A DNA stretch of 64,000 nucleotides from Gordonia westfalica. GTDB lineage: Bacteria; Actinomycetota; Actinomycetes; Mycobacteriales; Mycobacteriaceae. The stretch is taken from positions 682,001 through 746,000 of the forward strand of contig NZ_FNLM01000034.1 in the NCBI RefSeq assembly GCF_900105725.1. The letters are read 5' to 3'. The notes below the pieces were generated by a model. The model saw only the letters and a list, made by a program, of their open reading frames with translations, did not search any database and was not told where the DNA came from. How positions within the stretch are numbered: the first letter of the stretch is position 1; each line of letters begins with the position of its first letter. Made by a program: the position numbers and the translations under genes. Of the stretch, positions 42,751 through 46,179 are shown one piece after another.

Positions 42751-42882
42751 ACGACTCTCGCTCCCTGAGGCGCGAGGAGCGCAAGCGACGAGCCACGACT
42801 CTCGCTCCCTGAGGCGCGAGGAGCGCAAGCGACGAGCCACGACTCTCGCTCCCTGAGGCGCGAGGAGCGCAAGCGACGAGCC
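42751..42882. repeat. Three tandem copies of a 44-bp repeat
   Basis: Identical 44-bp units start at 42751, 42795 and 42839. The unit contains CTCGCTCCCTGAGGCGCGAG and then GAGCGCAAGCGACGAGCC. It has no spacers, so it is not CRISPR. Part of its core recurs in inverted orientation at about 43086-43107. It sits in the non-coding stretch 42646-43108 together with the palindrome at 42995-43028; no gene is supported here. Confidence 0.9.
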
Positions 42883-42994
42883 ACGAAGGGCCGGCGAGTT
42901 CGCCTCGCCGCGCAACCACATCCGGAAACGAGGTCGCGCGCGACCTCAACCCGCCCTTCAGGAGCGTCCGGAGCCCCACTGCCGAACCTCAACT

Positions 42995-43028
42995 CGACCG
43001 GCAGACGTCGATCGACGTCTGTCGGTCG
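42995..43028. repeat. 34-bp near-perfect palindrome
   Basis: A perfect 20-bp palindrome CAGACGTCGATCGACGTCTG (43002-43021) extends to 17-base arms with a single mismatch (42995-43028). It could form a cruciform or bind a dimeric protein. It lies between the tandem repeats and the IS110 element. Confidence 0.8.
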
Positions 43029-43083
43029 GGTTGCCGTCGACCGGTGGTTGGGTGGGCGACGGTGTCTCACCCGGCCTTCGAGG

Positions 43084-43108
43084 CTCGTCGCTTGCGCTCC
43101 TCGCACCT
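43084..43108 (-). repeat. Inverted partial copy of the local repeat, cut off at the IS110 left end
   Basis: CTCGTCGCTTGCGCTCCTCG is the reverse complement of the core of the 44-bp repeat unit. It runs through CACCT to 43108 and then stops abruptly where unrelated IS sequence (AGTAATAG) begins. Confidence 0.65.
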
Positions 43109-43137
43109 AGTAATAGCTCCAAGGTGGTGAAATGAGG

Positions 43138-43195
43138 GACATCCTCCTGTTGTGGTCATAAGGGCTTGGTGTCCCAACCACAAAAGGAGGATGTC
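43138..43195 (+). promoter_or_regulatory. Hairpin sequestering the transposase ribosome binding site
   Basis: GACATCCTCCTGTTGTGG (43138-43155) pairs with 43178-43195 at 17 of 18 positions, with a 22-base loop. The right arm contains the RBS AAAAGGAGG (43182-43190) and reaches to the base before last ahead of the ATG at 43197. Transcripts entering from outside would fold and hide the start; shorter transcripts from an internal or junction promoter would not. Confidence 0.75.
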
Positions 43196-43196
43196 G

Positions 43197-44540
43197 ATGT
43201 TCGAGGCTAGTCCGTTGAGCCGAGGAGCGAAACGCCGAAACGACCGGTTGACCCGGTTCCGAGAAATCGTGGGCCGCGATCACGCGGTGGTGGCGATCGA
43301 CCTGGCAGCCAAGAAGCAGGTGATCGTGGTCGCCGATCACGACTCCCGCATCCTGGCCCGCAAAACGTTTACCTGCACCCCGTGGAAGTTGGGGCCGGCG
43401 ATCGCCTGGGCCCGCACCCAGGCCGAGGTGGCCGGATTCGCCGGCATCGTGATCGCCTGTGAACCGACCGGGCACCGCTGGAAAGTGGTGGCCGACTTGG
43501 CCGCCGCAGCCGGAGCGCAGATGGTGTGCGTGCAACCGATGGTCGTGGCCCGCGCTCGGGAAACCGAAGACTTCACCCGCGACAAATCCGACGACAAAGA
43601 CGCCCTGCTGATCGCTCGCCTGACCACCCAACTCCACATCTACCTGCCCGAACACGCCGATCAGCACTGGGCACGGCTGCGCCACCTCGGCGTGCGACGG
43701 GCCGAGCAACTCACCCGCCGAGCCGCGGCCCGCCAACAAGTGCGTGACCTGCTCGACAGTGCCTGGCCACAGGTGCTCGAGTGCGCCGCCCAACCATTGG
43801 ACTCGGCCACCTGGCTGGCCACCATGGCCATCATCGGCTGCGATCCGCGCACTATCACCGCCTTGAGAACCCCTGCCCGTGCCGATACCCGGCTCCGGGC
43901 GAAGCTGCGCCGTGAACTTGCCCGCTGGGGTGTGCGCCGCATCCACGGACCGATCCTGACCGCGATCATCACCGCCGCTTTCGCGACCACCATGCCGCCC
44001 GAGCGGACCGGAGCGTTGGAACGTGCCCACTACGCTCTCAACGACTTTCACCACGCCACCGTCGAGTGCCGCGAGGTCGAACACCGGATGCTCGCCGTCC
44101 TTAACGACCTGCACCTGAACGAGTTGGCCAGCAGCATTCCCGGCGTCACCGCGGTCTCGGTCGCGGCGATCCTCGCCGAAACCGGTGACCTGTCCCGCTT
44201 TAATTCCGCACGGGCAGTGGTCAAACACGCCGGCCTATGCCCGCGGGAGAACTCCTCGGGCAGCTACCAGGGCAAAACCACCATCAGCGGACGCGGGCGG
44301 CCCCGCCTACGGACCGCCGCCTGGCGTGCGGCGTTCGGCGCGTTGCGGCACAACCCGGTCTACGCCGCCCGCTACCAACACCTGACCACCCGCACCCACA
44401 ACCGACTGCAACCCAACCAGGCCTATGTGGCCATCGCCGCTGCCTTGCTACGCCAGCTGCACGTGGTGATCACCACCGCCACTCCCTGGGACCCAACCCT
44501 GGCCGGCGCACCCCAGACCGCGGAGGTGAACGCCGCCTGA
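43197..44540 (+). CDS. IS110-family transposase (DEDD recombinase)
   Basis: 447 residues from ATG 43197, six bases after AAAAGGAGG (ATG 43191 is too close to the RBS). The N-terminal RuvC-like DEDD domain has Asp35 (AIDLAAK), Glu89 (ACEPTGHRW), Asp132 and Asp135 (DKSDDKDALLIAR). The C-terminal Tnp20/IS116-IS902 domain has IPGVTAVSVAAILAE and the nucleophile-bearing NSSGSYQGK (Ser353-356). The family recombines through a circular intermediate and, in the studied members, is guided by an element-encoded bridge RNA. All catalytic residues are present, so the enzyme looks active. Confidence 0.93.
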   Translation: MFEASPLSRGAKRRNDRLTRFREIVGRDHAVVAIDLAAKKQVIVVADHDSRILARKTFTCTPWKLGPAIAWARTQAEVAGFAGIVIACEPTGHRWKVVADLAAAAGAQMVCVQPMVVARARETEDFTRDKSDDKDALLIARLTTQLHIYLPEHADQHWARLRHLGVRRAEQLTRRAAARQQVRDLLDSAWPQVLECAAQPLDSATWLATMAIIGCDPRTITALRTPARADTRLRAKLRRELARWGVRRIHGPILTAIITAAFATTMPPERTGALERAHYALNDFHHATVECREVEHRMLAVLNDLHLNELASSIPGVTAVSVAAILAETGDLSRFNSARAVVKHAGLCPRENSSGSYQGKTTISGRGRPRLRTAAWRAAFGALRHNPVYAARYQHLTTRTHNRLQPNQAYVAIAAALLRQLHVVITTATPWDPTLAGAPQTAEVNAA

Positions 44541-44600
44541 ACCGAAAACCCCACCGACCGGGACAAGCTCGCCGCACCTAGGGCACAACCCGCGCCTGAG

Positions 44601-44817
44601 CCTGAGCAGTCCCACCCGGCGCGACCCGAGCTCGGATGAAGGCTGTTGGGTACCAACCCGTTTGACCGCTAGGTAGAGCCCGCGCCAGGCAACGACCCCG
44701 GCCGCCCAACCGATCACCAGCACCTATCCCGGACAGCGTCCAGGCCGCCCGGCAATACCCACACGCCCACACCCCACCACAGGACCCATTGACACAAACC
44801 CTCATAGGCTGCTCAGG
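44601..44817. other. Structured non-coding region bounded by a 9-bp inverted repeat
   Basis: CCTGAGCAG (44601-44609) and CTGCTCAGG (44809-44817) enclose 199 bases that contain smaller inverted repeats (CCGAGCTCGG near 44627, GTTGG-GTA-CCAAC near 44645-44657) and no convincing gene. It lies 60 bases after the transposase stop and directly abuts the 37-bp tandem repeats. It could be the IS right end holding a guide RNA, or unrelated chromosomal DNA. Confidence 0.4.
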
Positions 44818-44926
44818 CAGCGGAGCTGGGTGCGTCGCGCTCTTTCGGATCAACCAGCGGAGCTGGGTGCGTCGCGCTCTTTCGGATCAACCAGCGGACC
44901 TGGGAGCGTCGCGCTCTTTCGGATCA
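44818..44926. repeat. Three tandem copies of a 37-bp repeat
   Basis: Units begin at 44818, 44855 and 44892, each starting CAGCGGA and ending in CGCGCTCTTTCGGATCA. The first two are identical; the third has two or three changes and is cut after GGATCA. No spacers are present. The array ends 14 bases before the stop of the convergent aminotransferase gene. Confidence 0.85.
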
Positions 44927-44940
44927 GGGAGCGATGTCGT

Positions 44941-46179
44941 TCAGCTCAGCGCGGCCCGCATGCGGTCGGCGAGTTCGCCGACCTCCTCGGTCGTCATGAC
45001 GAAGGCCGGCGAGACCTGCAGCGCACCCTGACCGGCGGCACGTGTGCTGACACCGTGCTCACGCAGCTTCAGCACCGTCGCGGGTGCGGACGCCGGGTCG
45101 GCGAGCTGCACCGCGGTGACCGCACCGAGCCCGGTGCGCACCTCGGCGACCGAGTCGAGTTCGGCCAGCGGCGACAGCGCCGCCGCGAGGTCGCCCTCGA
45201 GTCGCGTGGCCTCCGCGAGCAGGTTCTCGCGCCGGATGATCTCGAGGTTGGCAAGCGCGGCGGCGGCGGCCGCGGCGTGCCCGCCGTAGGTGTAGCCGTG
45301 ACGCCACCAGACGCCGCCGGCGAAGAACGGCTCGGCCACGCGCGGGGCGATGAAGACAGCACCCATCGGGACATATCCGGAGGTCAGGCCCTTGGCGGTG
45401 GTGATCATGTCCGGCTGCAGGTCGAAGCGGGCCGACGCGAACCACGAGTCGCCGCCGATGCGACCGAAGCCGGTGACGACCTCGTCGACGACGAACAGGA
45501 TGTCGTGGTCGCGGCAGATCGCGCGGACCTCTTCCAGGTAGCCCGCCGGCGGCAGGTAGATGCCACCGGCACCGATGATCGGCTCGCAGAAGAACGCGGC
45601 GATGTTGTCCGCGCCGACCCGCTCGATGAGCCCGAGGAGGCTCTTCGCGTCGTCCCAGTCGACGTTCTGCACGTCGTGCATGAGCTCGCCGTAGCCGTCG
45701 TGGTTGAGCGGGATGCCCGCCAGCGACGTACCCGCCGCGTGCATGCCGTGATAGGCCTTGGTGCGGCTGACGACGACGCGCTTGCCGGGCTTGCCCTGCT
45801 CCACCCAGTAGCGGCGGGCGAGCTTCACCGCGGTGTCGATCGAGTCGCTGCCGCCGGAGGTGAAGAAGATCTTCGATCCGGGCACCGGTGCGATCGCCGC
45901 CAGCTCGTCGGCGAGCTGCAGTGTGACGTCGCTCGCGATGTCCCCGAAGTTGGAGTAGTGCGCGATGGTGCCGAGCTGACGCGACACCGCGTCCGCGATC
46001 TCGGTGCGGCCGTGGCCGACGTTGGTGAACCAGAGGCCGGCGGTCGCGTCGAGATAGGACTTGCCGTCGCGGTCCCAGATCCGGGTTCCCTCACCCCTGG
46101 TCACGACGAACGGACCGCTCGCGGTCACCGCACCCATGTCGGCGAAACCATGCCACAGCGCACCAGAATTCTCAGCCAT
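44941..46179 (-). CDS. Class III PLP-dependent aminotransferase
   Basis: 412 residues from ATG 46179; ATG 46188 is possible. Fold-type I transaminase of the omega-aminotransferase group: GLWFTNVGHGRTEI near the start, FFTSGGSDSIDTAVKLAR (cofactor phosphate region), AYHGMH, the Asp that holds the PLP pyridine in LFVVDEVVTGFGR, and the Schiff-base lysine in MITTAKGLTSGYVPMG. Substrates may be putrescine, beta-alanine, GABA or similar; they cannot be read from sequence. Divergent from hrpA with a 61-bp gap. Confidence 0.88.
   Translation of the reverse strand: MAENSGALWHGFADMGAVTASGPFVVTRGEGTRIWDRDGKSYLDATAGLWFTNVGHGRTEIADAVSRQLGTIAHYSNFGDIASDVTLQLADELAAIAPVPGSKIFFTSGGSDSIDTAVKLARRYWVEQGKPGKRVVVSRTKAYHGMHAAGTSLAGIPLNHDGYGELMHDVQNVDWDDAKSLLGLIERVGADNIAAFFCEPIIGAGGIYLPPAGYLEEVRAICRDHDILFVVDEVVTGFGRIGGDSWFASARFDLQPDMITTAKGLTSGYVPMGAVFIAPRVAEPFFAGGVWWRHGYTYGGHAAAAAAALANLEIIRRENLLAEATRLEGDLAAALSPLAELDSVAEVRTGLGAVTAVQLADPASAPATVLKLREHGVSTRAAGQGALQVSPAFVMTTEEVGELADRMRAALS

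Follow-up and report, generated by a model that had tools for sequence, protein, structure and literature searches.

We analyzed a 64,000-nucleotide stretch of Gordonia westfalica DNA (hereafter the window) that carries a recombinase gene flanked by a short left and a long right non-coding end, inserted into a repetitive chromosomal sequence (Table 1). The recombinase matches both the N-terminal DEDD and the C-terminal Pfam domains of the IS110 family above their gathering scores, as well as an NCBIfam model, which upholds its first identification as an IS110 recombinase. The candidate catalytic residues D35, E89, D132 and D135, along with a C-terminal SG pair at positions 354-355, are invariant in 51 aligned sequences and presumably have the catalytic role that they have in the IS110 family. 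IS621 and ISCro4 were the only solved structures that matched the recombinase at E 0.01. Relatives of the protein, counting the host genome, occurred in 4 of 101, 3 of 59 and 6 of 394 genomes at E 1e-60 and in 8 of 397 genomes at 1e-90, in overlapping samples taken from the host's own kin. A genome of the same genus (G006) carries an element, the recombinase is 93% identical to a protein named from G. namibiensis, and 13 further relative loci in named genomes all bear actinobacterial titles. Plasmid records yielded no match at 1e-50, and none of 35 stretches of viral contigs that fit a pattern encoded a relative.

Table 1. Features of the element and its surroundings, in window positions unless a contig of the host genome (C34, C36) is given.
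Feature	Position	Strand	Basis
Left target half CGCTCCTCGCACCT, part of REP-like chromosomal repeat	43095..43108	+	134 exact CGCACCTCAGGSAGC sites genome-wide
Left CT core dinucleotide	43107..43108	+	Empty-site overlap exactly CT; dinucleotide common to both sides in 17 of 17 elements
TAGTAA, -10 half of candidate junction promoter	43108..43113	+	TAGTAA in 11 of 17; TAnnnA in 17 of 17
Whole IS110-family element	43109..44813	+	Copies L002 and L003, five empty sites, layout common to 17 elements; last two bases are the right CT core copy
Left non-coding end, 88 nt	43109..43196	+	Layout in 17 elements
Leader hairpin pairing ribosome-binding site AGGAGG (43185-43190)	43138..43195	+	Window z -4.08; AGGAGG pairing 0.99; strands covary
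IS110-family DEDD recombinase gene, 447 aa	43197..44540	+	PF01548 66.7 bits (gathering 29), PF02371 82.1 bits (gathering 21.3), NF033542 172.5 bits (cut-off 140)
Candidate bridge-type guide RNA, modeled extent	44554..44703	+	Alignment A4, RNAalifold, covariance model R1, helix swap test
Putative left target guide (LTG) CCGCACCT	44572..44579	+	Identical to left target at 7 of 8, core included
Putative right target guide (RTG) CGCCTGAG	44593..44600	+	Complementary to right target at 7 of 8, core included
Putative left donor guide (LDG) AAGGCTGTT	44639..44647	+	Against right IS end TAGGCTGCT; pairing partial, by-eye reading
Putative right donor guide (RDG) CTAG	44669..44672	+	Complementary to core plus AG of left IS end
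TTGACA, -35 half of candidate promoter formed only in circle	44789..44794	+	TTGAC, 17-19 nt to core T, in 17 of 17; TTGACA in 8 of 17
Right CT core dinucleotide	44812..44813	+	Empty-site overlap exactly CT; dinucleotide common to both sides in 17 of 17 elements
Right target half CTCAGGCAGC	44812..44821	+	Empty sites, genome-wide site count
Chromosomal tandem repeat of ~37 nt, outside element, beside REP-like target	44814..44924	+	Like repeats after target at empty sites L011-L013
Empty sites in host genome	C34:1463480-1463645, C34:1918009-1918233, C34:3214752-3214862, C34:1074813-1074919, C36:666990-667150		Three read as sequence: L012, L013, L011
REP-like site copies at ends of L033	C34:3346136-3346150 and C34:3347555-3347569		
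Predicted circle junction, ..GGCTGCT followed by AGTAATAG..			

The extent of the element, 1,705 bp, was fixed by two further copies in the host genome (L002 and L003, 77% identity to the window element) and by five empty sites. The right end lies at 44813 because all five empty sites join 43108 to 44812, the window's flanks meeting with an overlap of exactly two bases, CT. The alignment with L002 and L003 reaches 44822, nine bases beyond this point; these nine are target letters common to the copies, with one mismatch. The same layout was found in 17 elements, namely the window's own and 16 of 43 loci whose two ends could be recognized by eye, the remaining loci being further copies or truncated or broken; element ends and guide anchors were picked after inspection of the sequences. 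The left end spans 88-117 nt across the 17 and the right end, which holds the RNA described below, 212-310 nt (273 nt in the window element), and each element has the same core dinucleotide, CT, GT or AT, on both sides. A left end of about 88 nt, as had been estimated for the window element, is confirmed when counted to the ATG at 43197, a start picked by its distance from AGGAGG. Elsewhere in the host genome, an 80-bp piece identical to window positions 44739-44818, the right IS end plus five target bases, stands alone beside an apparent IS3-type transposase gene (by eye) and is a relic of another copy (L009, G000:C34:2235657-2235736).

These ends settle part of the original prediction, which had allowed the element to run to about 44924, where chromosomal repeat letters would resume. 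The letters CAGGGAGCGA are indeed present at 44925-44934, but the longer extent is wrong because repeats like 44814-44924 also follow the target at empty sites; this tandem repeat is absent beside L002 and L003. The same prediction had described a 217-nt region bounded by CCTGAGCAG. Its two arms exist, at 44601-44609 and inverted at 44809-44817 (two or more occurrences in 9 of 100 shuffles), but the region does not stand as a unit: the left arm supplies the 3' strand of a helix in the RNA and is kept in relatives with other targets, and the right arm consists of five bases of the IS end and four of the target.

The chromosomal sequence at the insertion site belongs to a REP-like palindromic family with the core CGCACCTCAGGSAGC, often in tandem, and the element is inserted at its centre. 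The core occurs at 134 exact sites in the host genome, versus 1 for the reversed pattern. Within the window, the repeat is found at 42768-42898 and 43000-43108, and a longer 5' extension common to many copies reaches back to about 43000. A different element of the host genome, of the usual left-end IS110 type (L033, G000:C34, approximately 3346138-3347602), carries the REP-like site, in exact copies, at or within each of its two ends and may represent a second recombinase that is attracted to these repeats. A single genome, G130, contains seven guide-RNA matches of equal score (L094, L098-L103). In the four copies there whose left targets were examined (L059, L062, L065, L067), the target ends in CTTCGT (three copies) or CCTCGT (one), followed by GATCATGCARTCCCGCCACC, which looks like a further repeat family.

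Alignment of the right ends revealed a block of approximately 150 nt with two domains, each consisting of a stem, an internal loop with two putative guides and a capping hairpin. The RNAalifold consensus for the 17 elements has 18 pairs, 5 of them with two-sided changes. The outer helix of the second domain is blurred in the RNAalifold alignment, and covaries strongly when strands are exchanged between lineages (-23.3 kcal for own strands versus -15.7 kcal for swapped ones; 0 of 20,000 permutations, 10 lineages). Four of the 17 RNAs (L043, L058, L071 and L072) missed the anchor pattern of the helix swap tests, leaving 10 of 13 lineages in both tests.

A covariance model built from the 17 RNAs (R1) matched 35 of 44 loci, the 17 training rows among them and two matches being cut by the locus end (L057 and L073); L029 was left out of this locus set. 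The nine loci that lacked a match include truncated, broken or relic pieces (L009, L044, L046 and L068). R1 likewise had no match at other IS110 elements of the host genome (L027, L028, L033 and L034) or in the R751 stretch with IS4321. It matched 8 of 301 and 7 of 396 whole genomes, the host being counted in both, and in the host genome a covariance-model search, a check proposed with the original prediction, recovered only the three copies at E 0.001. An Rfam scan of the window gave nothing at gathering scores. In a genome of the same genus (G010), one match, L085, is a relic that retains a leader hairpin, a gene start and a guide RNA, with an apparent IS3-type element (by eye) between them. 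We considered L085 as a solitary guide RNA, as the fetched stretch had no recombinase match, and rejected this reading given that the leader hairpin and gene start remain.

If the block acts as a guide RNA, its target guides should match the flanks of the element that carries them better than the flanks of others. Across 13 guide lineages, the LTG agreed with its own target at 6.0 of 8 positions versus 3.7 for swapped targets, and the RTG at 6.8 versus 3.5, with none of 20,000 permutations reaching the value for own targets. This test used fixed anchors and Watson-Crick pairs only, included the core, and omitted four of the 17 elements as near-copies (L048, L039, L045 and L071). With all 17, the values were 5.9 versus 3.9 for the LTG and 6.7 versus 3.8 for the RTG (0 of 20,000, also under eight scoring variants). 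When the right end was scanned without anchors, the LTG was the site of the best match to the left target in 15 of 17 elements, and the RTG was that of the best match to the right target in 14 of 17, with ties counting as hits. The fit between guide and flank is poor on both sides in L036 and L039, and the right target of L045 fits better elsewhere. On the donor side, the final RDG base is complementary to the first base of the core in all 17 elements. Judged by the swap and scan comparisons, the putative target guides follow their own targets across lineages. The second GCACCT (44574-44579), around which complementarity to the flanks had been anticipated, belongs to the LTG, and the repeated GCACCT thus represents one target half and one guide. 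In G047, the corresponding guide CTGCTCCT reads GCTCCT and four left flanks end in GCTCCT (two) or GCTGCT (two), where the window has GCACCT in both guide and flank; this would be a natural redirection of the target guide.

We conclude that this is very probably an IS110-family element in which the recombinase works with an RNA derived from the 3' non-coding end, a reading to which we assign a probability of roughly 0.9. The 17 elements and the guide swap and scan tests bear out the candidate guide RNA downstream of the recombinase, in an IS1111-like position, that the original prediction put forward. The link to the IS1111 group that this position implied is not supported. Downstream RNA, a short left end and a long right end are reported for IS1111 (PMC11208160, PMC11187229), and the window element shares all three; its GLCPRENSSG stretch also agrees with the IS1111 motif GL-P----S(t)G. 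Nevertheless, we consider it unlikely that this is a true IS1111-group element, with downstream RNA, subterminal inverted repeats and the IS1111 guide order. As an IS1111-group yardstick, we used IS4321 from plasmid R751, which is named an IS1111 family member in a paper title. With the same script as for the clade, an RTG-like AAAACGGAAA precedes an LTG-like TATTTTC in IS4321. The clade shows the reverse, which is the IS110 order: all 17 of its elements place the LTG before the RTG. In IS621, too, a bottom-strand match comes before a top-strand match. The same succession is reported for the IS110 element ISEc21 (PMC11187229).

The remaining comparisons with IS1111 concern inverted repeats, protein length and phylogeny. 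The window has no inverted repeat at matching distances that is common to close relatives, where the IS1111 group has subterminal ones of 7-17 bp; its longest, ATGAGGG (7 bp), lies at unequal offsets (23 and 8) and is 4 bp in the close relatives L048 and L049. Inverted repeats occur in other elements, namely a 9-bp pair in L043, a 7-bp GTAAGAG pair near the core in L069 and GTAAG in L070 and L063. At 447 amino acids, the recombinase is longer than that of IS4321 (334) and than the 330-350 reported for IS1111. In the tree, the clade (100/100) and six IS4321 relatives (100/99) are separate groups; both fall, with L111 and the left-end IS110 element L028, in a 25-row group (87/80) that is drawn open, long branches meeting there, and that would favor the IS1111 assignment. 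For this tree, stops were set to X; the genes of L045 and L063 are broken or shifted, which puts their N-terminal parts in the wrong frame. The NCBIfam model NF051857, tried as a group marker, does not separate the groups. Two further IS110 types in the host genome show the usual long left end: judged by the extent common to copies, they have approximately 300 nt on the left and 41 nt on the right (L027/L029) or approximately 320 nt and 65 nt, possibly with some target repeat included (L033/L034). The clade thus appears to combine an IS1111-like RNA position with an IS110-like target-guide order.

Two other explanations fare worse. It is very improbable that the conserved downstream block is only a 3' UTR or terminator structure with guide matches arising by chance: on its own the window RNA indeed folds no better than shuffled sequences (z 0.58, 143 of 200 as good), but the match between guide and target tracks lineage and, in the scan above, peaks at the guide position. 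The original prediction also entertained, from the 9-bp direct repeat CGCACCTAG, a compact IS110 element that stops near 44581 and encodes no guide RNA. The only two positions of the repeat in the window are 43102-43110 and 44573-44581 (two or more in 4 of 100 shuffles). This reading has almost no chance of being right, because other copies continue 232 bases past 44581, the empty sites refute it, the second GCACCT falls within the RNA block, where the G047 copies have GCTCCT (2 of 4 with a GCTCCT target), and no copy ending at 44579 without RNA was found in the host genome, where the two other copies share the end at 44813.

The left end has a conserved feature of its own: a predicted leader hairpin that pairs the ribosome-binding site of the recombinase gene. 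Leader fold z-scores have a median of -3.1 (-6.2 to -0.6) in the 17 elements versus approximately 0 (-3.0 to 1.6) in 12 controls, which are the leaders of other IS110 genes after removal of 4 of 16 that had no motif resembling a ribosome site. Pairing of AGGAGG ranges from 0.65 to 1.00 (median 0.92) in the 17; on its own, this measure separates elements from controls less well because the control range, 0.40-1.00 with a median of 0.78 for looser motifs, overlaps. The strands of the hairpin covary (own -30.5 versus swapped -23.7 kcal; 0 of 20,000, 10 lineages), and 3 of 13 consensus pairs show two-sided changes. We suggest that the hairpin most likely keeps translation of the recombinase low, a repression that is perhaps autoregulated.

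The hairpin loop reads GGGCTTGGNNTCCCA in 13 of 17 leaders (alignment A3) and is one base longer in two more, which seems a stronger conservation than a simple block of the ribosome site would need. We considered pairing between this loop and the first RNA helix and rejected it, as changes in the common GTCCC do not track those in the RNA from lineage to lineage (by eye). A search of the open literature for an IS110 leader hairpin at the Shine-Dalgarno sequence returned a sole match, on Amoebophilus; such a hairpin may nevertheless have been published already.

A junction promoter has been reported for the IS110 family (PMC11208160), and the ends of this element contain candidate halves of one, of which the -10 half is a weak match to TATAAT. 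In linear form, the stretch 43000-45000 gave no hit in a promoter scan, which is to be expected if the circle alone brings the halves together. In the mechanism we propose, excision would join the element ends into a circle, in which TTGACA from the right end and TAGTAA from the left would make a promoter. One transcript could then span the recombinase and the guide RNA, in line with a general proposal by Siddiquee et al. (PMC11187229), and the guide RNA would be cut from the 3' UTR and loaded into the recombinase. The first RNA domain would read the left target through the LTG and then the right target through the RTG, and the second would read the right IS end through the LDG and the left IS end through the RDG. 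The complex would insert the circle at the CT in the centre of the REP-like palindrome, with its ~134 copies.

How does this arrangement relate to what has been described? According to published accounts, both RNA position and guide order distinguish the two known groups (PMC11208160, PMC11187229): RNA position closely predicts the group according to Durrant et al. (PMC11208160), and the guide order of IS1111 is the reverse of that of IS110 according to Siddiquee et al. (PMC11187229). For the vast majority of the IS110 group, the RNA is reported in the left end. The downstream position alone is not new, because a 3' non-coding region in some IS110 elements was already noted by Siddiquee et al. 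2024 (PMC11187229). As far as sequence can tell, the additions to the published picture are the guide order and the conserved leader hairpin over the ribosome-binding site. With its ends corrected and a putative guide RNA behind the recombinase gene, the element would be of the RNA-guided type, as a variant in a family that is already known. A clade with an IS1111-like position and an IS110-like order separates the two traits and could be an evolutionary intermediate or a switch. A more speculative idea, which we offer only tentatively and think somewhat improbable, is that RNA position and guide order are independent, that the whole two-loop RNA of IS110 order moved behind the gene, and that the left end became a translational switch, formed by the conserved hairpin with its GGGCTTGGNNTCCCA loop at the ribosome-binding site, by which the recombinase or its RNA would limit recombinase synthesis. 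The hairpin suggests copy-number control, which is not described in those parts of the published text that we compared. Bridge-RNA recombinases are in development as programmable DNA insertion tools, and the clade also offers natural reprogrammings, with CT, GT and AT cores and 13 distinct guide sets among 17 elements.

Overall, the element appears to be related to known RNA-guided recombinases, with its features in an unusual combination. Like IS621 and ISCro4 (PDB 8wt6, 9t56), it has a DEDD recombinase with RuvC-like and C-terminal domains, and it shares with IS621 or its family a CT core, a target loop before the donor loop, REP targets and a junction promoter (PMC11208160). It differs in that the RNA of IS621 occupies the left end, ahead of the gene, and opens with a 5' stem-loop, whereas here the RNA lies in the right end; moreover, the solved chains of IS621 and ISCro4 have 328 and 341 amino acids, compared with 447 here, where the left end holds a ribosome-site hairpin. 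With the IS1111 group (IS4321, ISEc11, ISPa11) it shares a guide RNA region downstream of the gene and a short left end, but the guide order is reversed, the window lacks conserved subterminal inverted repeats and the recombinase is longer. The 'green' group in Fig. 1b of Siddiquee et al. 2024 (PMC11187229), for which the portions of text compared name neither guides, guide order nor a leader hairpin, resembles the clade in pairing an IS110-type recombinase with a downstream non-coding region. Compared by description rather than by member list, this 3'-region IS110 group is probably the nearest described kind.
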